Shown here: positions 35,234 to 48,442 of the stretch, piece after piece
Layout: every line of letters starts with the position of its first letter
Numbering within the stretch: position 1 is the stretch's first letter
DNA from: Rhodospirillales bacterium
GTDB taxonomy: Bacteria; Pseudomonadota; Alphaproteobacteria; TMED109
Assembly: GCA_028824295.1 (NCBI GenBank)
Contig: JAPPED010000023.1
Location: 1-64,000, forward strand
Length of the DNA stretch: 64,000 bases
Direction of reading: 5' to 3'
Program-made: the position numbers and the translations under genes
The notes under the pieces: model-generated
The model's database searches: none
Told to the model about the DNA's origin: nothing
Seen by the model: only the letters and a program-made list of their open reading frames with translations

Positions 35234-36475
35234 TCAGCCCGTCAATCTGTTCCGCTCGATATTCGCGCTTCGCACCGGAATGCCGAATTCCTCGTGACAG
35301 ACGTCTGCAAGCACCTTCACACCCTCCCGAATCGCGTCTGCCGTCGGGTTCCCAAAACAAAGGCGTATCCGCGAACGCGCAGGCACCGCATCAGCTGACC
35401 AGTCGGGTCCGGGATTAATGGCCACTCCTCGGGCGGCCGCGGCTGTAGCCAGCTTCGTGGCGTCTACGGCATCCGGGAATGTGACCCACAGGAAGATCCC
35501 GCCGGGAGGCGGCGTGAATTCGGCCGTCGTTCCGAAGTTCTCCTCCAGCGCCTCGATCATCGCGTCGAGCTTGTCCTTGAGCAGCACGGTGACCTTGGCA
35601 ACATGATCGTCAAAATGCACTCGGCAATACTCGGACAGCATCATCTGTTCGAGGGCGCCGGTGCCACCGTCTTCCTTGCAGGCAGCCATTTGCGCCACGA
35701 GGTTTGGCTCCGCAACGATGTAGCCCACTCGGAGAGCCGGCGCGATGGTCTTCGAAAACGAACCGCAGTGGATGACCTGTTGGCAGCGGTCCATGGCTGC
35801 AATAGCTGGTGGACGTTCACCCGTCCACAATAGGTCCGCGTAACACTCATCCTCGAAAATCGGCACACCGTATTCGGCAGACACTTCCAGCAGTTCTGCG
35901 CGCCGTGCCTCGGGCATGATGCTGCCGTCAGGATTCTGGACGGTCGGAATGACGTAGATGAACTTCGGCTGGATTGCCCGCGCCTTGAGCTGAGCCAGCT
36001 TCGCAGCCAGCCGATCCGCGCGCATGCCGCTTTCGTCGAGCGGGATGCCGACCGGCTTCACGCCGAGACTCCGGAGCCGGCTGAGCGTGCCCGCATAGGT
36101 GAACTGCTCAACCAAGACCGTGTCGCCGGGACAGCAAAAGACCTCGTAAACAAGTTCGAGCGCCTGTATTGATCCGGAAGTGATCAGGACATCATCAGGT
36201 GAAACCGACAGGCCACTGCGCTTCTCGAGTTTTGCAGCGACAAACTCCCGGAGCGGCCGATAACCAAGCGGGCCGCTCTCCAGTCCATAGGTAGACAGCG
36301 TGGCTCCGTCCCGCCGCAGAGCCGTCGCCGTCGCCGTGATCATGTCCTCGACCGGCACGCTAGCTGCATCGACGTGCCCGCCAATGAAATTGTAGGGCGG
36401 GCGCCCCTGCCAGCCGGGAGCAGGTGCTGGGAGATCAGGCGCCAGCAGCGCCGCGTAGTCGATGGTCACTGCCAC
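35234..36475 (-). CDS. PLP-dependent aminotransferase, 2-aminoadipate/MocR-like class
   Basis: The 413-residue enzyme starts at a GTG at 36475 (MAVTIDYAALLAPD) with AAGGAG upstream. It has the PLP-binding Lys in CGSFSKTIAPALRVGYI, the N-loop YVIPTVQNPDGS and EDECYADLLW, which is the pattern of LysN/valine-pyruvate type aminotransferases and of the MocR C-terminal domain, but there is no HTH domain. The substrate is unknown. It lies upstream of the gap preceding the PKS operon's 3' end and is probably independent of it. Confidence 0.88.
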   Translation of the reverse strand: MAVTIDYAALLAPDLPAPAPGWQGRPPYNFIGGHVDAASVPVEDMITATATALRRDGATLSTYGLESGPLGYRPLREFVAAKLEKRSGLSVSPDDVLITSGSIQALELVYEVFCCPGDTVLVEQFTYAGTLSRLRSLGVKPVGIPLDESGMRADRLAAKLAQLKARAIQPKFIYVIPTVQNPDGSIMPEARRAELLEVSAEYGVPIFEDECYADLLWTGERPPAIAAMDRCQQVIHCGSFSKTIAPALRVGYIVAEPNLVAQMAACKEDGGTGALEQMMLSEYCRVHFDDHVAKVTVLLKDKLDAMIEALEENFGTTAEFTPPPGGIFLWVTFPDAVDATKLATAAAARGVAINPGPDWSADAVPARSRIRLCFGNPTADAIREGVKVLADVCHEEFGIPVRSANIERNRLTG

Positions 36476-36876: not shown

Positions 36877-39414
36877 TCAGGTGGTATCACGGCGGGCTGC
36901 CGGCGGCGGCTTGACGTCGTGCACGTAGTTTCGAGTCGCGAGAAACTTGGCATAGCTGGCGAATGCTGCGTCGACCCCGTCGGCGGTCAGGCCGTAGTCA
37001 TCCAGAGTGTATCGGTGTCGTGGCTCCCGCCGCCGCCGTTCCATCTGCCGGTCCAGCCAACCGGTCATCTCGTTCACGGCCGACCGCGTGAGCGACCACC
37101 CGAACCGACCGTAGATGGCCTCTACTACCGCCATCGGATCGCGAACCAGCGCATGGTAGTTCACGTCCACCCAGCGGGCTTCCAACTCCGGATGCGACTC
37201 CCGAAACCGGATTCCCCGGTCCAGCATCCGGCTCATGAACGACAACTGCTCGGCACCGACCTCGGAGGGAACAACCCGATCGCTGTTGAGCGAGCGAATT
37301 CGTTCCACCAGGCTGTTCCACGATCCCATGAATTGTATCGGCTCCCGGTGGGTCTGAATGAACAGGGCGTCGGGATAGGTTGCCATCAAGGTATCGAGTT
37401 CCATCAGATGGAAGGGCATCTTAAGTAGCCACTGCCCGCCGTGCCCCGGAAAGCGCTGCCTACGCTGCCAGTTGAAGTGCTGCATGGTGCGCCGATGGAA
37501 GCCATAAGCTTCGCTGGATCCACGTTCCGCCAACCAGCGCGCATACCCCGGAACAGGAAACTGGGCGAGGAAGACCCAGGTCGTGAAGGTCATTCGGAAG
37601 ATCGGGTAGTCCTCTTCCGGTTCATCCATGTCAAAGTCGTGAATCCCGGCGAACACTTCGGCGAACCGAGAGGCACGGAAGATTTCCTCTGTCCGAATCC
37701 GGCGGGGGTCTGCAGGGGTGCCGCCGACGCCCGCATAATCGCCGTCCGGCAGCACCGGCTCGATGTACTCGTATTGCCGCAATGCCCAGAACCGAGGGTC
37801 TCGGGCCAGCAGGCGATGGAGATACGTGGTGCCGGTACGGTTGATCCCGACAATGAATACCGGCCGGATAACCTTCTCACGGTCAATTTCGGGGTGGCGC
37901 AGTCGCTCACCGGCAAGTGCTGCATTGCCGCGCAGGAAACGGCTCAGGCTGTATACGGTATCGGCCAGCCTGTCCTGCTGCAGCCTGACTCCGGGCTCCT
38001 GCAACGCCTGGACCAACTGCTCCAGACCCTCCCGCATCCACGCGGGATACGTGGCCTCGAAAGCTACCCCCTCGTCCTTCGCGTACTGTTCCGCTCGGCT
38101 GATCAAACCGTCGAAGTCGAGGCTGCTTTGATGAACTGAATATGGCCAATCCTCACGGTGGGCCCGAATCCATCGGTGGGAGCGTCGAAGCTTGGTCAGG
38201 GCGCCCATCCATTTGATGGGAAACGGACAGTCCTCGCGAATGGCGCGGTCGCACATCGGGAGCTGGTCCGCAGGCTTGTTCCTGCTGAACCAGTACTTCC
38301 CGAAATGATCCAGCACCGCCCAGTGGCCATGCAGCGGTGATCGCTGACCGTAGGCCTGACACGCGCGCTTGAATTCCTCGTAGGAAACCTCGGGCCAGTA
38401 CAATCCGAAGTCCGCCGGTTCCAGATCGTGGTGATCCAGTTCCGGATTGCAGCAGTGGTAGATCGTGAAGCGCCGGCTCGCGTTCAGGGTTATCGCCACG
38501 CAAATTCGGGCTACCGTATCGACGACTTCGTTGCTGGACCGAAACGAGAATCCTTTCGGCATGATTCCGATTTCACCGACCGCGGCCAGTATCTTTATGG
38601 AAAGGTCATGTGCCGGCGTGTAGCCGCTACTTGACAGACCGGTTTGCGGGAGACGGAAAATCGCCAACGGCATGCCTGCCTGCTGGGCAAACAAGAGGAT
38701 TTGTTCGGACACCAACTTGCTCCAGGGATAGCCGAGCAAACCGATTGGGAACATCCGCTTCATGCAGGTCAGATCCGGTTGCATTTGATGCCGGATCCGA
38801 CTCTGCTTGAACTCGTGTGCGAAGGAAAAGAAGTATTGCGGAAACACGCCCATTGAGGATGCGTAGTACAGGTACTTGTAGCGGGTCCGGAGGCACAGCT
38901 CCAGCACGTTACGAAGGCTGAGCGTGTTGACCTCGCGGATGCCCTTGTAAGAAGAAGAGAGCGTGATATCAGCGGCGAGATGATAGACCGCGTCGATCCG
39001 CCCGCACAAATTGTCAAACTTGATATCGTCAAGCCCGAATCGCGATAGCCCGATATCACCAGGGACTGCGCGGATCCGCGGTGCGAAGTCATCATCCCAG
39101 ATTTCCGCCTCGGACATCGCACGGCGGATACGGTCGATGCCGCGCTCCGAATCTTCGGCGCGAACCAGGCAGTACACGACTACACGGGAATCCTGCCGAA
39201 GGAGCTCGTACAGGAAAAAACGTCCAATGAACCCCGTACCACCGGTGAGCAGTACCTCTCGAATGTCCGTTGGAGGAACCGCCGCAGACGGGGCTTCTTC
39301 ACTGATGACATCGTGGACAAACCGGCGCAGCGCGTTGACATCTCTCTGGCAGTCGGGCGGAAGTTCCCCTGCAAGCGGCGATACCGCCGTGTCCGCAACG
39401 GCCTGGTCGGTCAT
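36877..39414 (-). CDS. thioester reductase-sulfotransferase fusion, third gene of the PKS operon
   Basis: The 845-residue protein starts at the ATG at 39414 (MTDQAVADTAVSPLAG), 35 bases after the radical SAM stop. Residues 45-400 are a thioester reductase/male-sterility type NAD(P) domain: VLLTGGTGFIG near residue 53, YASSMGVF, and the catalytic Tyr-Lys in LGYPWSKLVSE near residue 226. A linker of about 110 residues follows. Residues 515-800 are a sulfotransferase (PF13469-like): PAPS 5'-phosphate loop FIVGINRTGTTYLHRLL near residue 521 and 3'-phosphate motif QTHREPIQFMGSWNSL. The expected job is to reduce the ACP-bound chain to aldehyde or alcohol and sulfate a hydroxyl. No thioesterase exists in the PKS, so this is the likely release enzyme. 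Confidence 0.9.
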   Translation of the reverse strand: MTDQAVADTAVSPLAGELPPDCQRDVNALRRFVHDVISEEAPSAAVPPTDIREVLLTGGTGFIGRFFLYELLRQDSRVVVYCLVRAEDSERGIDRIRRAMSEAEIWDDDFAPRIRAVPGDIGLSRFGLDDIKFDNLCGRIDAVYHLAADITLSSSYKGIREVNTLSLRNVLELCLRTRYKYLYYASSMGVFPQYFFSFAHEFKQSRIRHQMQPDLTCMKRMFPIGLLGYPWSKLVSEQILLFAQQAGMPLAIFRLPQTGLSSSGYTPAHDLSIKILAAVGEIGIMPKGFSFRSSNEVVDTVARICVAITLNASRRFTIYHCCNPELDHHDLEPADFGLYWPEVSYEEFKRACQAYGQRSPLHGHWAVLDHFGKYWFSRNKPADQLPMCDRAIREDCPFPIKWMGALTKLRRSHRWIRAHREDWPYSVHQSSLDFDGLISRAEQYAKDEGVAFEATYPAWMREGLEQLVQALQEPGVRLQQDRLADTVYSLSRFLRGNAALAGERLRHPEIDREKVIRPVFIVGINRTGTTYLHRLLARDPRFWALRQYEYIEPVLPDGDYAGVGGTPADPRRIRTEEIFRASRFAEVFAGIHDFDMDEPEEDYPIFRMTFTTWVFLAQFPVPGYARWLAERGSSEAYGFHRRTMQHFNWQRRQRFPGHGGQWLLKMPFHLMELDTLMATYPDALFIQTHREPIQFMGSWNSLVERIRSLNSDRVVPSEVGAEQLSFMSRMLDRGIRFRESHPELEARWVDVNYHALVRDPMAVVEAIYGRFGWSLTRSAVNEMTGWLDRQMERRRREPRHRYTLDDYGLTADGVDAAFASYAKFLATRNYVHDVKPPPAARRDTT

Positions 39415-39449: not shown

Positions 39450-41198
39450 TCAGGCCGCCGGCAACCGCGCCTGCTGCGCAGCCTGCACGTTGATGGCCGT
39501 GCGGAAAGAGTCCAAGGCGGTGTCGATTCCATCGCTGTGGTAGCGGAAGTCGCCCGGGATCGACTTGTAACGGGTGTTGACGTCCGCGAACAGTCTTTGT
39601 CGCAGGACGTCGACGTGCTCCGGCTGTTCGGCACACGCGGCCGCGTCTTCTTTGAACGACTCCAGTTCCTCTGCCAGAAATTCCTTGAAGTCATGGATCG
39701 CGATTTGCTGGCGGGTGATCTTCTCGAAGTGGTAACCCAATGCCGCCAGCCGGATGGCCTTTGGAAGCATGCGGGGATGCTTTCTCGATACCTCCGCCAC
39801 GTACTTCGTGTAGGCCGGGACCTGCTCCGGGGAAAGACGTCCGCGCACAAGCATGAGGTCCGTGAAGACCGCGTTCTTGCTCTTGGGTTTCTGCAGGTGC
39901 GGTACCGGCTTCAAGTGTTCGAACAGCGTCAGGCAGCGGCTGAAATAGTTCTCCAGTGTCGGATCGTAGAGCGTGGAGGTCACGCGCCGATATCCTTCGA
40001 GCAACGTCCGGTGATCCAGTTCCGTCTTGAAGTTCAGAATGGTGGCCTGGGTCCCGATCGCCACATTGAGCAGGCGGCCTTCATCCTGAAGGCGCTTGTA
40101 CATGTCCGTGCCCTTCAGTGCCGTAAGGAGATAGATCGGGGCCACGGGAATCCCGGTCGCCTGGATGAACTCGATCTGGATGTCGAACACGGTTTCGTCA
40201 TCGCCGTCCAGACCCAGGATGAAACCTCCCTGCACCTGCATGCCCTTGCGTTGGATCCTCCGGACTGCCCGAAACAGGAAGTTCTCTTCTTCCTTGCTGG
40301 TGTTCTGGGGTTTCTTCGTCTTGAGCAGAGCCTCAGGGTTGGGGGTCTCGATTCCCAGGAACACGGTGTCGAAGCCGGCCTGGATCATGGCTTCCATGAG
40401 GTCGTCCATGCGCGCGAGATTCAGGCTTGCCTCGGTGCTCAGGAGGAACGGGTAACCGCGCACCTGTTGCCATTCCGCCAGTACCGGCAGCAGATTCATT
40501 GCGTCACGCTTGTTGCCGATGAAATTGTCATCGACGAGGAACACGGGGCCCCGCCAGCCAAGTTCGAACAGAACGTCGAACTCGCGCACCATCTGATCTG
40601 GTGACTTGGTCCGGGGCACCCGGCCGTAGAGCTTGGTGATGTCGCAAAACTCGCAATCGAATGGACATCCGCGTGAGAACTGAACCCCCATCGAGTGATA
40701 GCTCTTCATGTCGATGAGGTCGAAGCGCGGGATCGGCGTTCGGCTCACGTCCGGTTTCCGCGGTTCCCGATACATCTTCTTCGGTGTGCCGTTCTCCAGG
40801 TCGCGCAGAAACTGGGGGAATGTCTCTTCGGCCTCGTCCAGCACGAAGTAATCGACACCGCGGATCTCATCGTGAAATGTGGTCGGATGCGGCCCACCGG
40901 CCACGACCGGCACCCCGGCCCGAATGCAGCGCTCGATGACCGTCTGGAGGGATACTCGCTGCACAATCATGGTGGACGTAAACACCATGTCGGCCCATTC
41001 CAGGTCCGAGTCGGTCACGGGGTCCACGTTCATGTCCACGACACGGAGGTTGTATTTCGGTGGAAACATGGCCGCGATGGTCAGGAGGCCCAGCGGCGGA
41101 AAGGCCGCCTTGATTCCCACGAATTCCAGCGCGAAGTTCGCTCCCCAGTAGGTATGGGGGTGCTCCGGATAGACCAAGAGCGCGTTCCGCATGGCCAC
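39450..41198 (-). CDS. B12-binding radical SAM enzyme, second gene of the PKS operon
   Basis: The 582-residue protein has an N-terminal cobalamin-binding Rossmann domain (residues 5 to about 140, LLTIAAMFPPKYNLRVVDMNVD and AGGPHPT). The radical SAM domain follows, with the 4Fe-4S cluster motif CPFDCEFC (CxxxCxxC) near residues 177-184, the SAM-binding VDDNFIGNK and TEASLNLA, and GFILGLDGDD. The C-terminal part looks like DUF4070, as in the HpnP/BchE-like group. Such enzymes methylate unactivated carbons, make C-C bonds or open rings. It lies 8 bases after the PKS stop, so its substrate is probably the PKS product or its carrier-bound form; the DxHxxG B12 ligand motif is not evident. Confidence 0.92.
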   Translation of the reverse strand: MAMRNALLVYPEHPHTYWGANFALEFVGIKAAFPPLGLLTIAAMFPPKYNLRVVDMNVDPVTDSDLEWADMVFTSTMIVQRVSLQTVIERCIRAGVPVVAGGPHPTTFHDEIRGVDYFVLDEAEETFPQFLRDLENGTPKKMYREPRKPDVSRTPIPRFDLIDMKSYHSMGVQFSRGCPFDCEFCDITKLYGRVPRTKSPDQMVREFDVLFELGWRGPVFLVDDNFIGNKRDAMNLLPVLAEWQQVRGYPFLLSTEASLNLARMDDLMEAMIQAGFDTVFLGIETPNPEALLKTKKPQNTSKEEENFLFRAVRRIQRKGMQVQGGFILGLDGDDETVFDIQIEFIQATGIPVAPIYLLTALKGTDMYKRLQDEGRLLNVAIGTQATILNFKTELDHRTLLEGYRRVTSTLYDPTLENYFSRCLTLFEHLKPVPHLQKPKSKNAVFTDLMLVRGRLSPEQVPAYTKYVAEVSRKHPRMLPKAIRLAALGYHFEKITRQQIAIHDFKEFLAEELESFKEDAAACAEQPEHVDVLRQRLFADVNTRYKSIPGDFRYHSDGIDTALDSFRTAINVQAAQQARLPAA

Positions 41199-41206
41199 GG
41201 CCCCTC

Positions 41207-44200
41207 CTATCCCGCCGCCTCGAGCCGTAACGGGGGCGATTCCGCTACAGCGACATCGACGTCCTTCGGAAAGTGGTCCTCCGGCGCGCTCGCGAAACGC
41301 GACGGTGCCCGCTGCAGGCGTTCCGCAAAGACGGGCGACGTGTCCGTTACCTCCCTTGCCGGATCATCGGACGAGATCTCCTCCTCCTCATCCTTTCCGT
41401 GGATGATCCCCTGCGCCAACGACAGCGCCGAAGCTGTCGTCATGAGTTCAAGCGCGCTCACCCGGTAATTGAACTGCGTCTGGATAAACGTTCCCAGCTC
41501 GGCAACCGAAATCGAGGTGAGACCGAAGCTGGACAGTGGCTCTTCGACGCCACCCTCGTCATGACCGCACAGCTCCGCCACCTTCGCGGCAATCTGCGCC
41601 GCCACGCTCTCGAGCGTCTGTTCTCCGGTCATGCCGGCCTCGAACGCATCCTGATTGCGCATCAGGCGCCCAATGCGCATGTAGTCCGGGAGGTCAACCG
41701 TCCACGACGGACGCTCGAACAACACCGAGACAAGATGGTCCGAGTCCGCCATGGCGCGGAGCGCGAAGTCCAAATTGGAAACAGCGAAATCACTGCTGAT
41801 TGCCGGCAGGCCGGCCGCCCGCATCATGCGGAGCACCGGCAGGCTACGCGCGGCCATGCCGGCGTCGGCGACGGCGGCCATGTTGTATGAAAGGCCCGGC
41901 AAGCCCTGCTGACGGCGGCTCGCAGCCAGTCCGTCGAGAAAAGCGTTGGCGGCGCCATAGTTGATCTGGCCCGGGTTGCCGAGGACCGAGGCGGACGACG
42001 AGAACAGCACGAAATGGTCGATCGGGTGGCCCTTGGTGGCCCGATGCAGGTGGAGCGCACCACGAGCCTTAGGGGCAAACACATTTGCAAGTGACTCGGC
42101 CGAAAGATCGTCGAGCAGGCAGTCGTCGAGGGATCCGGCAAGATGGAACACGCCCTTGAGCGGCCGCTGGAGCTGGCCAATACAGCGCTGAACGTCTTCC
42201 TCGACCGATACGTCTCCCACAACGAAGTCGAATTCTACATCCTCATCCATGTAGGCGAGTGCGCTGTGCCAGCGAATCCACTCGGCATCCCGGCCGTGTT
42301 CCGGATTGCGGTCCATCAGGGTGAGGTGGCGCGCCCCCAATGCCGCAAGGTATGGCAGCAGGCGGCGGCCGAATCCGCCCTGACCGCCCGTTAGCAGATA
42401 GGTTGCAGCCGGATCGAACAGCGGTCGCACGTCCGCGATCGGCGCGCCCAGCGGACCGGAGCCCTGCGGAGCCCGCAGGACCAGCTTGCCCTGATGCCGG
42501 CCGGTGGTCATCAACCGCAGGGCCTTCGCGAATTCTTCGTACGGAAATACAGTGACCGGCAATGGCGGCACGGCACCGCCTTCTATCAGGTCGACACAGG
42601 CGACTGACAACTCCCGTGCCAAGGCCGGGTCATCGGCCATCAGCCGGTCCACATCGATGGCCGCGAACCGCAAGTTCTTGCGGAACACCCGCAGGCCGAG
42701 TTCGTTGTCGGCATAGATATCGACCTTGCCGATCTCGCACAGCCACCCGCCGGGACGCAGCGCCTCGAGACATAAATGGACATGGCGCCCCGCCAGGGAG
42801 TTCAGCACGACGTCCACGCCCTCTCCTCGGGTGGCCACCATCAGTTCGTCGTGCCAGTCGAAACTGTGCGAATCAAAGGCTGCCCGCACACCAAGTGACT
42901 GCAGCTGCGCGCGCTTTTCCTCGGTTCCGGCAGTAGCGTAGATTTCCGCCCCGACGTGTTTGGCCAAAGCGATGGCGGCCTGTCCCACTCCGCCCATCGC
43001 CGAATGGATCAGGACCCGCGCCCCTTTCCGCAAGCGGGCCAGATGGATCAAAGAGTAGTACGCGGTGACATAGACCGACAACGATGCTGCGGCCTCGTCC
43101 ATGTTGATACCGTCGGGCTTGCGGAACACGCGGTATTGGCTGGCCACCACGCGATTCGCGATGCAGCCGCCCTGGATGAAAGCCACCCGGTCTCCGACGC
43201 CGTGATCCTGAACAGCTGACCCGACCCGACGTACGACCCCGCTCCCCTCCATGCCGACCTCGTGCCCCAGGGCTGAGCGCTCATACGCCAATGCCGGCAA
43301 CAGCCCCAGCGTCACCATGATGTCGCGGAAGTTGAGTGCAGCGGCAGCGACGTCGATCTCCACGTCTTCCGGACCCAACGGCGGAAGTTCGTACGTCTTC
43401 ATCTCGAGGCCATTGATCTGCCCCGGATTGTCGAGCGTCAGGCGGTACGTTGGCAGGGTGCCGGCAGGGATCCGCGCATAGCGCTCCCGGAAACTGACCA
43501 TTCGCGGCACCCAGACGTCATTCTTCCGCACTGCCAGTTCGCGTTCCCGCACGTCGTGGTGCATCAGCCAGTGCAGCGTCTGGAGATCGTCCCGGTCACC
43601 CAGATCCACCAGGCGGAAATCGAGTTTCGCCTCCTCGTCAATTTCCACAGCCATGCTGCGGACCGCTCCCCACAACACGCTGCCGCGCGGATCCTCTACA
43701 TCGTGGACGGCGCGGCGCGTGATGACGGTCAATCGGCACGGGCAGTCCGCGTGCTCAATCCGGTAGGGGACCAGGGCCTGGACAAACGCGACAAAACGGG
43801 ATGCCGCTCTCTCCCCTGTCGGGTCTTCCGGATCCTGGCCGCAGAAGTAGTCGACCGCCTGCAAGTTGGCGGCCTCCGGCCAGTCCTCCAGCGCATGGAA
43901 ACGACCAGCCAGCAACGCTTCTTCGGGGAGCGCGTGCGCATTGTCATGGGGCTTAAAGAACGCCGACCAAGCCGGTACCCAACTTTCGGGCTCGCCCAAG
44001 ATCCATCGGGGACTGCGGAGCGCGTCGGCATCGAGTTGATCGCGGTCCGGACCGGGAGCTTGCAGCAGGGTGGCGCGTTGTCCGGCTCGAACCGCTTTCC
44101 AGCCGGGACTGGCAGAAACGACGTCGCCCTCGTCGTGCTCAACCAGCACCCAAGCGCCGGGCACCGCCAGGCTCCGCACCGTTTCCCACTCGCTTTGCCC

Positions 44201-47200
44201 GAAGCTCGCGGCCTCCCGGTGGAGGAAAATGATCTCGGCGGCGCCCGGCCGCAGCAGGCCCGCGTCCAGAGCGGCGGCATCCGCCATGTCGAATGTCGCG
44301 AAGCGCAGCGGCACGTCACAGGCATGGAAGGCGTCGTACAAGGCCCGCGTGCTCTCTTCACTGTCCCCCACGAGCCAGAACTCACTTTGCCCGGCAGTCT
44401 GCGCGAGGTTGGCGGCGCATCGTTCAAGAATGGTCTCGTCCGGCTCTCTGGAGCCGGCGAACTCGATGATGTGACAAGCGTATCGCTCGCCCTTATCCGG
44501 GTGTGTCAGCGCCGCGACTACGGTCTCGGGCTCCGGCTCCCCGCCCGGCAGCCTGTCGAGGAATTCCTGAACTGCGGGAAGCGCCTTTGGCTGCCAGCGA
44601 ACCTGGTGCTTGCTGTTCGGCAAGTCATTCCATCGCGGGTTGGACGTGAAGTACGTGTACTCGCCGATATGGGCGACGAGATCACCGGTGGCGCCGTCGT
44701 AGAAGCTGATGCTGCCGCCCGATCGTTCGCCGCGCCGAACCGAATACTGGCCCCGTTCGTTGGCGTTCATCCAGTCGTCGCTGGGCTTCGTGACATGGCA
44801 GGTAATGCGGGGCCCGGTGGGACGGCGCAAGAAGGTCACCCATTCCGCCCGCTGCGGAATCGCAAACAGGTCGGCGGCGGTCAATAGGTGATACAGGAAT
44901 ATCTGCAGCCCGCCGTCGAGCAGAGGAGGACAGGTGACGTAGCCCTCCTCCACTCCTGTCGCCCACAGCCCCTCGTCCATCTCGACGTCAAACAGGTAGG
45001 CCTTCGATACGCCGTCCACCAATACGCGCTGGATCGTCCTGAAATACGGGCCGTACTGGAATGTTTCGCTCAAGACCGATTGCAAGCGCTCGTAGAAATT
45101 CTGGTCGTCAGCAAGAATTGACTGCTCGAAGCCATCGGTGTCAATGTCCGTCAATCGCATCGGCACGCTGAGCGCCGGCTCGGTGCTCAGCACGCGCACC
45201 TTCCCGCGACAGTGGATCTCGCTGCTAGCGTCGACCTCGTAGGAACGCGAGGAAATTGTGAACGTGAACTCCTCCGGATCCGTCGGAACCGGCTGCAGGG
45301 CCGTTTGCAGCCTCACCGGCGCCTTGGGAACCGGACACGGCTGGAGAAATTCGAGCACCGTGAATTGGACCGGAACTCCGCCCAGCGCCTCAAGGATCAG
45401 CTCGATGTAGCCCGCCGCCGGCATGATCGCCGCGTGATGCACGCGATGGTCCGCCAGCCAAGGGAAGTCAGCTTCCGACAGTCGTGCTTCGAACTGCAGG
45501 TGCTCACATGGGACCCGGTGGCCGACCAGTGGTCCTTGTGAGTACTCGCCTTGCTGAACGAACATCTCGTTGTCGCAATGGAGATCCATCGTCGCCCGCT
45601 CTTCCCGAGGATGTCCGGGCAGGCGATCTGCGATCGGCTGCGGACGCGGATACTGGGCCGCGAAGTCCAGGGGAACGCCCGCCTGGAACAGTGCGCCCAG
45701 AGCGGTCTGAAAGCCGATGCAGACATCCGTCTCTCGGGTCAGCGTCTGAATGTTGGCTGGTACCGCGCGACTGCCTTCCAAACACTGGGCGATCGTGGAC
45801 TGAAGCGCACAGTGAGGCGCGATTTCCAGCACCACGTCGGGCTGAATTTCTCGCGTGATGGTTTCCATCGCGGCAGCGAACCGCACCGGCTGGCGGATAT
45901 TTGACCACCAGTACGCGTTGTCCAGTCGCCGTGTCGGCAGTCCGGTAACCGACGACACGAACGGGACATCGGCGTCGAAGTCGAGGTCATTCAGGAACGA
46001 CAGCGCCGCCAGCGCATCGTCCTTGAGGGGCTGCATCGCGGTGGAATGAAAGGCGATGTTGCCGGGCAGCAGCTGATTCTGCAGATGCCGGTGGTTCAAC
46101 GCCGCCATGACCGGCTGCAGGGCTTCCTCTGTTCCGCAGATCACGGTGTTGGCAGGGGCGTTCTCGCAGGCGATCTCTACCTGCGGCGGTTGGTCGGAGT
46201 CGTCCTCGCCGCTGCCGAAGGCGACGTCCAGTTCCGTCAGCAGGTCTTCCACGCCCGGACGGTCGAGGCCGATCGCCAGCATGCGGCCAGATCCGGCGGT
46301 CCGCTGCTGGAGCGTGGCGCGATGAAACACCAGACGCGTGGCTTCCTGCAGCGACAGCGCCCCGCACGCGTAGGCCGCCGCGACCTCGCCCGAACTGTGA
46401 CCGACCACGCAATCCGGGTAGACGCCCCAGGTCTTGAACAGCTCCACCAGGGCACACTGGATCATGTAAATGACCGGCTGCGCCAGCCGAACCTCGTTCA
46501 GCTCGGTCTGCGGTGCGCCGAAGCAGGCCTCGCGCAGCGAGATTTCCGAATGTTCGCGCCAATGCGCCTCGACGGCATCGATGGCCCGCCGGAACACAGG
46601 CTCAGCGTGATACAGGTCGCGACCGCACCCTGCCCACTGGGTGCCCTGACCGGAAAACACCATCGCCACGCGGCGCCCGCCGTCGTCGACCGAGTGGACA
46701 GGCGGCGGGTCCTCGATAAAGGCCTCAAGCGCTTCGACCAGTTCCTCGCGGTTCCGGACCGCGAATGGCGCGCGCATGGCGAAATGCGTGCGGCGGCGAC
46801 CGAGATTGCCGGCCAGGGTGTAGAGGTCGGGTTCGTGTTCGGCGACGAAGTCTCGCAGCCGCCGTGCGCTCTCGGTGAGTGCGCTGCCAGTGCGGGCCGA
46901 CAGCGGAATCATGAACCCGGCCTCCGGCGCGAGCGAAACCGACCAGGTCCGGGGACGGGCCGGGCGATACTCGCGGACCACGCAGTGCCCGTTGGCACCG
47001 CCAAAGCCGAACGAGTTGATTCCCACGACCACTGGGCGCTCGGGAAACGGCTCGCATTCGGTCTGCACCTGCATGGGACAGCGATCGAAGTCGATTTCCG
47101 GATTGGGCACCACGAAGTTCTTGGAAATCGGTGCAAATGTCCGCCTCTGCAACATCAGCAGGACCTTGAGCAGGGCGCAGTGGAACGCCGCGGCTTCCAT

Positions 47201-48283
47201 GTGCCCCAGGTTGCTCTTGACGCTTGCAATCCGCAGCGAGGTCTCTCGCTCGGGTCCGGCAAACGCGTCCGTAATGGCGTTTCCTTCGATCCGGTCCCCC
47301 ACGACAGTGCCGGTGGCATGGGCCTCGATGTAGTCGAACTCCTGTGGCGCGCGACCGGCCCGGGCGCCGGCCACTCGCATCAGCTCCGCCTGGGCGTGAC
47401 GGGTGGGGGCTGTGATGTAGCGCCCCTGCGCCAAACCCTCAGTCCCGTCGGCAGCGCCGGCCGCATTCACGGCGGTAGCCTCGATGACGGCGTGAATGGG
47501 ATCCCCGTCGCGCTCGGCTGCAGTCAGCGGTTTGATGGTGAAGACGAACGCCCCTTCCGAGCGCATGTAACCATTGGCTTCCGCGTCGAAGGAATGGCAC
47601 TTCCCGTCAGGGCTGATCACTCCCAGGGCGTTGAACGAGGCGCTCAGCCTGGCAGTTCCCATGTAGTTGACCGAACCGACCAGCGCCTGCTCGCAGTCAC
47701 CGCGCTGGAGCCCGTTCATTGCCGCATGGAGAGCAGTGAGGCTCGCCGAACATGCCGTGCAATAGGTCGTGGAGGACCCCATCAAGTTGAAGTGATAGGA
47801 GATACGGTTGGCGAGCATGGCCAAGCTGATGCCCGTCACGTCGAACGGCTGGGCGCCCCGCATCGGCCGCCAGTTCGAGACGGGCGGTACTTGCGCGCCG
47901 ATGTAGACGCCGGTCGGGCTGTTGCGGAGCGAATGGAGGTCCCAGCCCACGCGCTCGAACGCTTCCCAGGCGCATGTCAGCAACATCCTCACCTGAGGAT
48001 CCGTCGACAGCATTTCGCTTTGGGACAGCCCGAAGAGACTGCGGTCAAACAGCTTCTCTTCGTCGTCGCGAATGAGACCCTCGTAGGCGCTGGCAAACCG
48101 ACCTGGGCCGGAGAAACCGCCGATCGGCCGGTAACCTCTCCCGTAGCGATCGGTTATGGGTTCCTGGACGATTTCGCGCCTGCTAAGCAGATCCCAGAAG
48201 TCGGAGTCGGTGTGGATGCCGCCAGGCAAACGGTAGCTGTACCCGGTAATGGCAACCGGGAAATTGAACTCCTGTGAACTCAT
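41207..48283 (-). CDS. single-module, FAS-like, fully reducing type I polyketide synthase
   Basis: The 2358-residue protein starts at the ATG at 48283 (MSSQEFNFPVAITG); a TTG five codons upstream is possible. Domain order: KS 8-435 (Cys178 in CTACSASL, His in EAHATGT, Lys/His in KSNLGH); AT 560-880 (GQGTQW, Ser630 in GHSSGE, IAFHS, a malonyl-type motif); DH 930-1160 (His946 in DHRVHHAAIMP, Asp1123 in LLDGGLQ); a pseudo-methyltransferase about 1275-1445; a pseudo-KR 1480-1590; ER 1610-1935 (SAMGGVGQAA); KR 1960-2180 (TGGQGGFG, Ser in FSSSASVLG, Tyr2109 in NYGAANAF); ACP about 2215-2290 (Ser2257 in FGLTSISVAEL); then an acidic tail of about 65 residues. No thioesterase. This is the order of animal fatty acid synthase and suggests an iterative enzyme making a reduced alkyl chain. 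The radical SAM and reductase-sulfotransferase genes follow closely. Confidence 0.96.
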   Translation of the reverse strand: MSSQEFNFPVAITGYSYRLPGGIHTDSDFWDLLSRREIVQEPITDRYGRGYRPIGGFSGPGRFASAYEGLIRDDEEKLFDRSLFGLSQSEMLSTDPQVRMLLTCAWEAFERVGWDLHSLRNSPTGVYIGAQVPPVSNWRPMRGAQPFDVTGISLAMLANRISYHFNLMGSSTTYCTACSASLTALHAAMNGLQRGDCEQALVGSVNYMGTARLSASFNALGVISPDGKCHSFDAEANGYMRSEGAFVFTIKPLTAAERDGDPIHAVIEATAVNAAGAADGTEGLAQGRYITAPTRHAQAELMRVAGARAGRAPQEFDYIEAHATGTVVGDRIEGNAITDAFAGPERETSLRIASVKSNLGHMEAAAFHCALLKVLLMLQRRTFAPISKNFVVPNPEIDFDRCPMQVQTECEPFPERPVVVGINSFGFGGANGHCVVREYRPARPRTWSVSLAPEAGFMIPLSARTGSALTESARRLRDFVAEHEPDLYTLAGNLGRRRTHFAMRAPFAVRNREELVEALEAFIEDPPPVHSVDDGGRRVAMVFSGQGTQWAGCGRDLYHAEPVFRRAIDAVEAHWREHSEISLREACFGAPQTELNEVRLAQPVIYMIQCALVELFKTWGVYPDCVVGHSSGEVAAAYACGALSLQEATRLVFHRATLQQRTAGSGRMLAIGLDRPGVEDLLTELDVAFGSGEDDSDQPPQVEIACENAPANTVICGTEEALQPVMAALNHRHLQNQLLPGNIAFHSTAMQPLKDDALAALSFLNDLDFDADVPFVSSVTGLPTRRLDNAYWWSNIRQPVRFAAAMETITREIQPDVVLEIAPHCALQSTIAQCLEGSRAVPANIQTLTRETDVCIGFQTALGALFQAGVPLDFAAQYPRPQPIADRLPGHPREERATMDLHCDNEMFVQQGEYSQGPLVGHRVPCEHLQFEARLSEADFPWLADHRVHHAAIMPAAGYIELILEALGGVPVQFTVLEFLQPCPVPKAPVRLQTALQPVPTDPEEFTFTISSRSYEVDASSEIHCRGKVRVLSTEPALSVPMRLTDIDTDGFEQSILADDQNFYERLQSVLSETFQYGPYFRTIQRVLVDGVSKAYLFDVEMDEGLWATGVEEGYVTCPPLLDGGLQIFLYHLLTAADLFAIPQRAEWVTFLRRPTGPRITCHVTKPSDDWMNANERGQYSVRRGERSGGSISFYDGATGDLVAHIGEYTYFTSNPRWNDLPNSKHQVRWQPKALPAVQEFLDRLPGGEPEPETVVAALTHPDKGERYACHIIEFAGSREPDETILERCAANLAQTAGQSEFWLVGDSEESTRALYDAFHACDVPLRFATFDMADAAALDAGLLRPGAAEIIFLHREAASFGQSEWETVRSLAVPGAWVLVEHDEGDVVSASPGWKAVRAGQRATLLQAPGPDRDQLDADALRSPRWILGEPESWVPAWSAFFKPHDNAHALPEEALLAGRFHALEDWPEAANLQAVDYFCGQDPEDPTGERAASRFVAFVQALVPYRIEHADCPCRLTVITRRAVHDVEDPRGSVLWGAVRSMAVEIDEEAKLDFRLVDLGDRDDLQTLHWLMHHDVRERELAVRKNDVWVPRMVSFRERYARIPAGTLPTYRLTLDNPGQINGLEMKTYELPPLGPEDVEIDVAAAALNFRDIMVTLGLLPALAYERSALGHEVGMEGSGVVRRVGSAVQDHGVGDRVAFIQGGCIANRVVASQYRVFRKPDGINMDEAAASLSVYVTAYYSLIHLARLRKGARVLIHSAMGGVGQAAIALAKHVGAEIYATAGTEEKRAQLQSLGVRAAFDSHSFDWHDELMVATRGEGVDVVLNSLAGRHVHLCLEALRPGGWLCEIGKVDIYADNELGLRVFRKNLRFAAIDVDRLMADDPALARELSVACVDLIEGGAVPPLPVTVFPYEEFAKALRLMTTGRHQGKLVLRAPQGSGPLGAPIADVRPLFDPAATYLLTGGQGGFGRRLLPYLAALGARHLTLMDRNPEHGRDAEWIRWHSALAYMDEDVEFDFVVGDVSVEEDVQRCIGQLQRPLKGVFHLAGSLDDCLLDDLSAESLANVFAPKARGALHLHRATKGHPIDHFVLFSSSASVLGNPGQINYGAANAFLDGLAASRRQQGLPGLSYNMAAVADAGMAARSLPVLRMMRAAGLPAISSDFAVSNLDFALRAMADSDHLVSVLFERPSWTVDLPDYMRIGRLMRNQDAFEAGMTGEQTLESVAAQIAAKVAELCGHDEGGVEEPLSSFGLTSISVAELGTFIQTQFNYRVSALELMTTASALSLAQGIIHGKDEEEEISSDDPAREVTDTSPVFAERLQRAPSRFASAPEDHFPKDVDVAVAESPPLRLEAAG

Positions 48284-48442
48284 CCGCCAAGCATCCAATT
48301 GAGGCGGTCTCCAGCAGTTCGGCGGCGGTGCCCGCCCACGGACGCCTAGAGAGTCAGCGACGCGTGTACCGCTGCGAATTCAACCATGGTCCTAGTTAGC
48401 GCAGCCGACCCATGCGCGTCCTAACTATCGCGATCTTCAAGA

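Follow-up and report, generated by a model that had tools for sequence, protein, structure and literature searches.

The 64,000-nt stretch of DNA analysed here (the window) carries on its minus strand a gene whose product joins a thioester reductase (R) domain to a PAPS-dependent sulfotransferase (ST) domain. From its architecture, sizes and hallmarks, compared with published text, the surrounding operon is identified as swf, one of the two PKS/FAS groups that are very widespread in sponge microbiomes, and the fusion as SwfB. Judged from the sequences, swf is probably a pathway for long-chain alkyl sulfates, in which SwfA would build the chain and SwfB would reduce, release and sulfate it. The operon comprises:

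36877..39414, minus strand: swfB, the R-ST fusion (845 aa; open reading frame and Pfam; 28 near-full-length homologues)
39450..41198, minus strand: swfC, a B12-binding radical SAM enzyme with DUF4070 (582 aa; Pfam)
41207..48298, minus strand: swfA, a monomodular type I PKS/FAS, KS-AT-DH-ER-KR-ACP (2363 aa; all six domains matched by Pfam)

The genes are tightly spaced in the order swfA-swfC-swfB, with gaps of 8 and 35 nt. The swfB frame is unbroken from an ATG start at 39414, with neither stop nor frameshift between the halves; an alternative GTG start extends it to 39636, where the extension overlaps the upstream radical-SAM gene. Pfam matched NAD_binding_4 (E=4e-47) followed by Sulfotransfer_3 (E=5e-36), both far past the cut-offs, which is the domain order that the sequence-only reading had proposed to search for. 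Its central observation, a reductase and a sulfotransferase in one polypeptide, is borne out by the single 845-aa frame with Pfam and fold matches for both halves. An assembly chimera or a frameshift fusing two genes is ruled out, because full-length copies recur in many independent assemblies, four of them congeneric genomes at 83-92% identity and many others at 46-67%.

The swf operon was described in 2013 by Della Sala et al. from metagenomes of Plakortis simplex and Aplysina aerophoba (PMC3908369). Published sizes are 2349-2361 aa for SwfA (KS-AT-DH-ER-KR-ACP), 832-839 aa for SwfB (R + ST) and 585 aa for the radical SAM protein SwfC, and a hallmark of SwfA is I or V in place of the second Q of DPQQR (PMC3908369). 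The window SwfA carries all six published hallmarks (DPQVR, HATGT, GHSSGE, IAFH, FSGQGTQW and QCALVEL). SwfC, with its CX3CX2C motif, is described as optional in swf and is absent from PSA11D7 (PMC3908369); the CxxxCxxC motif was present in 25/25 SwfC homologues and reads CPFDCEFC in the window. The published clusters (PS11G3, PSA11D7, POR_0550; PMC3908369) share with the window the R + ST fusion at near-equal length, the SwfA and SwfC neighbours and the SwfA hallmarks, and the gene order A-C-B is that of the POR cluster. The window differs in its host, an alphaproteobacterial genus; the likeness is to published descriptions rather than to deposited sequences. Since the operon is the swf of PMC3908369, the fusion and the main idea were already known, and the novelty implied by the earlier reading falls away: the 2013 paper on SwfB had already put that idea forward. 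The window gene is a new alphaproteobacterial copy of a known fusion. The poribacterial origin of swf was withdrawn (PMC4245539), swf-like clusters were placed in Nitrospirota, Latescibacterota and Acidobacteriota MAGs (PMC9426513), and swf was reported in 'Thalassonella' (PMC10227082); no mention of alphaproteobacterial hosts was found in this literature (PMC3908369, PMC4245539, PMC9426513, PMC10227082). Expression of a complete swf cluster in E. coli yielded no detectable compound (PMC3908369), and no report of a swf product or a SwfB assay was found in the openly licensed PMC literature. In a Nitrospira genome (G193) swfA consists of two overlapping open reading frames split near residue 1125 (L027:997-8036), in the manner of the published POR_0547 and POR_0548, a split formerly ascribed to Poribacteria; this likeness would point to Nitrospirota as the source of that cluster.

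The boundaries of the two domains were placed by structure matches:

38125..39366, minus strand: R (thioester reductase) domain of SwfB, residues 17-430 (model match 4w4t_A)
36931..38127, minus strand: ST (PAPS sulfotransferase) domain, residues 430-828 including its N-terminal helices (model match Stf1 2zq5, Stf9 2z6v)

A first model, for which 27 close sequences were used, was of middling quality (pLDDT 69); a second, built from a 52-row alignment to which stand-alone ST and R relatives had been added, reached a mean pLDDT of 90.9 and a pTM of 0.88. Its R half matches the terminal R domain of MxaA from the myxalamid system (4u7w, 4w4t; Z 40.2 and rmsd 2.7 over 379 residues against 4w4t_A) and shares its NADPH and YxxxK motifs, although identity is 26% and MxaA is without a sulfotransferase. 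Residues 429-821 superpose on Mycobacterium tuberculosis Stf1 (2zq5) at Z 39.5 and rmsd 2.7 over 359 residues; Stf9 (2z6v) ties with it (Z 40.1), and the ST fold match reaches about residue 827. These mycobacterial enzymes share the whole ST fold, N-terminal helices included, and differ in being stand-alone proteins of 28-32% identity. Stand-alone bacterial sulfotransferases (~28-39% identity) also begin near SwfB residue 429. In the model the R and ST domains abut, since the superpositions and the stand-alone ST starts meet at ~429-430. The flexible linker of about 110 residues seen by the sequence-only reading, which had set the ST start near the PAPS loop, is ruled out: R runs to ~430, and the stretch belongs to the ST fold, both in the model and in stand-alone relatives, with the N-terminal helices beginning at ~429 as in Stf1 and Stf9.

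The motifs named earlier were all present (TGGTGFIG at 57, YPWSK at 229, INRTGTTYLHRLL at ~524-536 and THREP...GSW at ~688-699). Conservation was scored on a 27-row alignment, and motif counts on 29 proteins agree with it:

39223..39246, minus strand: NADPH-binding loop TGGTGFIG, residues 57-64 (T57, G58, G61 and G64 invariant in 27 sequences)
38716..38730, minus strand: catalytic YPWSK (YxxxK), residues 229-233 (Y229 and K233 invariant)
37825..37848, minus strand: PAPS 5'-phosphosulfate loop GINRTGTT, residues 523-530 (N525, R526, G528, T529 and T530 invariant)
37312..37356, minus strand: presumed PAPS 3'-phosphate motif QTHREPIQFMGSWNS, residues 687-701 (R690, G697 and W699 invariant)

The last of these we take to be the 3'-phosphate motif from general knowledge of sulfotransferases; its S698 is kept in 26 of the 27 sequences.

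Searches for SwfB homologues covered the window's genus and relatives of several hosts, with taxa taken from record titles or from the named genome at the search centre. The 28 near-full-length homologues, at 46-92% identity, come from at least four phyla: besides the window's genus, the hosts include a second alphaproteobacterial family (G572, 57%), Rhodobacteraceae (46%), Nitrospirota, Acidobacteriota and Latescibacterota. The homologous MAGs fall in phyla reported for sponge swf (PMC9426513); their titles name no host animal, and we infer a sponge source for them from the swf literature. The SwfB trees intermix phyla, which points to transfer of swf between them. Among 72,556 plasmid records no SwfB match covered 80% of the query, and the best plasmid matches listed span the ST part only. 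SwfA orthologues of >50% identity occur in nearly every genome carrying an intact SwfB. No swfC turned up at the loci of G572, G1073 and Rhodobacteraceae (swfC missing: L087, L096, L098), and a tandem pair of swfC genes stands in three Acidobacteriota-related genomes, G204, G205 and G206 (L079:10463-14017, L083:5255-8569, L084:5332-8885). Because swfC is missing or doubled at some loci, SwfA and SwfB emerge from the comparison as the conserved core and SwfC as an optional decoration.

Across 29 proteins the distance matrices of the R and ST halves have a correlation of 0.92 (Mantel p 0.001), and SwfA distances correlate with those of R at 0.71 and of ST at 0.83 (n=14). Within the genus dN/dS is ~0.14 for the whole of SwfB, and in the comparison of the window with G005 the R half has 0.14 and the ST half 0.12. 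On these measures R and ST evolve as one protein, permanently joined, and purifying selection acts on both halves. Redox-inactive R domains are known, as cited in PMC3908369, and one half of SwfB might accordingly be catalytically dead and serve as a scaffold or a carrier-protein docking domain; this is very improbable given the invariant cofactor residues, purifying selection and co-inheritance of both halves and the PAPS-synthesis genes beside the cluster.

Decayed swf operons were found in several lineages (L021:14353-15186, L091:9186-10144, L086:9393-10146, L028:6734-12445). The congeneric G004 retains only SwfB residues 566-844, having lost a dipeptidase gene, swfA, swfC and the rest of swfB relative to its congeners; the fragment is without the PAPS loop, and its comparison with the window gives a dN/dS of 0.27 (0.0603/0.225). 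In G675 the beginning of swfA leads, out of frame, into what remains of SwfB, from residue 553 on (dN/dS 0.28). The surviving fragments of these two unrelated genomes thus start nearly alike, just past the PAPS loop. G202 keeps scraps of swf, and in G194 swfA is broken and a stop interrupts swfB. The swfB of G416 (L085:8214-10583) is an orphan, shortened at its start, that adjoins gyrA and is without a stop codon; no swfA orthologue was detected in that genome. Six otherwise invariant residues are changed in its product, including S698A in the presumed 3'-phosphate motif and W662G, and its overall dN/dS of 0.18 is not raised. The swfA of G005 (L017:5546-12633) is split near residue 997 with a TAG inside, either a recent pseudogene or an assembly error. 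The G003 contig stops ~0.6 kb upstream of the aminotransferase gene described below, where the swf site would be sought.

Genes for PAPS synthesis lie beside swf in several lineages. Nitrospirota carry cysNC, with an APS kinase domain, ~0.6 kb downstream of swfB (G192, G193, G667, G669; partial in G194), Rhodobacteraceae (G200, G1059) have cysD 36 nt after swfA and then cysNC, and in G1073 cysD and cysNC follow swfB. An exporter is also linked: in Rhodobacteraceae the genes directly after swfB are one that matches the HlyD family weakly and one for an AcrB-type RND pump, and an RND gene lies just upstream of swfA in G572 and G1073. The positions are:

L034:17195-19905, L097:8137-10844, L096:11766-15970, L026:4230-5987: PAPS-synthesis genes beside swf
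L027:12925-14670, L088:12594-14396, L089:12871-14661, L028:13104-13718 (partial): further PAPS-synthesis genes beside swf
L034:12600-16836, L097:3544-7780, L087:13153-15999, L096:4-1584: HlyD-like and RND genes at swf

With one cysNC per ~2.5 Mb genome and 3 kb taken on each side, chance adjacency is ~0.2% per lineage, a rough arithmetic that assumes three independent lineages; three different cysNC arrangements by accident are therefore very unlikely. The PAPS-synthesis genes tie the ST half to PAPS-dependent chemistry, and the RND pump, found in three lineages, is likely the exporter of the swf product. No mention of either linkage was found in the main text of the swf papers, whose supplements may show it, and the cysNC/cysD and RND linkages would be a new context for swf. 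Many swf loci, that of the window included, have no PAPS gene or exporter nearby; this weighs against the alkyl sulfate reading, as do the long swfB of G416 with no swfA detected and the negative E. coli expression. In the window genome a 649-codon frame contains an APS kinase domain and two genes encode phosphopantetheinyl transferases, which makes cofactor supply plausible. Elsewhere in that genome, outside the window, lies a second large PKS open reading frame of 3484 codons (G000:C3:135291-138749), with 36% identity to SwfA; a gene that probably encodes an Sfp-type phosphopantetheinyl transferase (G000:C3:150052-150363) is ~11 kb away from it. Similar large frames occur in many swf genomes and are candidates for sup PKS.

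In the window's genus one further gene stands downstream of swfB:

35234-36475, minus strand: class I/II aminotransferase, syntenic in the genus with or without swf

Its presence could suit a scheme in which the ST half sulfates some other acceptor (a lipid head group, an amine or a different small molecule), with the fusion merely holding together two enzymes of one pathway; Sulfotransfer_3 enzymes use many acceptors, and the acceptor is not readable from sequence. The aminotransferase was nevertheless rejected as a pathway gene and is attributed to ordinary synteny, because it is kept where swf has decayed and, beyond the genus, had no match next to swf. The swf loci compared showed no further conserved partner gene, and sulfation of such an acceptor is considered unlikely.

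A sulfotransferase also ends the PKS line in CurM and the olefin synthases, which sulfate beta-hydroxyacyl-ACP, as cited in PMC3908369. These systems differ from SwfB in their thioesterase partner; their structure 4gox matched the first model at Z 11 and was not among the 50 matches listed for the second, a result that is uninformative alone. The contrast drawn by the earlier reading with ST-thioesterase alkene formation is upheld, as the partner in SwfB is a reductase, the ST half is closest to Stf1 and Stf9, and Pfam found no thioesterase domain in SwfA, SwfB or SwfC. CurM-type decarboxylative elimination was rejected on this last ground. The ST half might still act before release on an ACP-bound hydroxyl, for example the beta-hydroxyl; the sulfate would then either stay or depart as a leaving group, and the R domain would free an aldehyde, an alcohol or an unsaturated product. 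The CurM precedent and the possibility that the reductive domains of SwfA are skipped in some cycles, leaving a hydroxyl, would favour such an order of events; but SwfA has KR, DH and ER, so that a kept beta-hydroxyl is not expected by default; the thioesterase needed for the decarboxylative route is absent; and the ST domain follows R on a protein distinct from SwfA, its nearest counterparts being stand-alone sulfotransferases. Sulfation ahead of release is accordingly given a low probability. A further comparison is the multimodular type I FAS of coccidia, which by the description in PMC3908369 has contiguous R and ST domains at its C-terminal end and differs in holding them inside one large eukaryotic protein.

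The coupling of release to sulfation, as first proposed from the window, is the best reading of the comparative data, because R and ST keep their cofactor residues, stay joined and coevolve. In the alkyl sulfate pathway SwfA, presumably used iteratively, would build a probably saturated acyl chain on its ACP, and SwfC, where present, would decorate it, probably by methylation. The R domain would free the chain by reducing the acyl-ACP thioester with NADPH, first to the aldehyde and, as the myxalamid reductase does, on to the primary alcohol. The ST domain would then move sulfate from PAPS to the new hydroxyl, the released alcohol being its likely acceptor, and the resulting long-chain alkyl sulfate may be exported or take its place on the cell surface. 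An R domain may go no further than the aldehyde; by analogy the alcohol is favoured here, the myxalamid domain being the nearest match of the R half and the ST domain next in line needing a hydroxyl. The myxalamid R domain was studied for primary-alcohol production, according to the title of Barajas 2015 cited in PMC13303079, and CpFAS1-R of Cryptosporidium is the terminal R domain of a reducing megasynthase for which alcohol or aldehyde was left open (PMC2995488). Alkyl sulfates are rare but known from sponges, ascidians and echinoderms (PMC6780655).

Taken as a whole, swf may be a pathway that has spread horizontally among sponge symbionts of several phyla and that produces a long-chain, often methylated, alkyl sulfate for export, with one bifunctional terminase that reduces, releases and sulfates, and with PAPS synthesis and an RND exporter in the locus of some lineages; this fuller picture is put forward tentatively. 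If it is true, swf would be a bacterial source of aliphatic sulfates like those of marine invertebrates. The linkage to PAPS genes names the class of compound to seek, sulfated long-chain alcohols, and PAPS supply is one suggested change for the heterologous expression of swf that failed.
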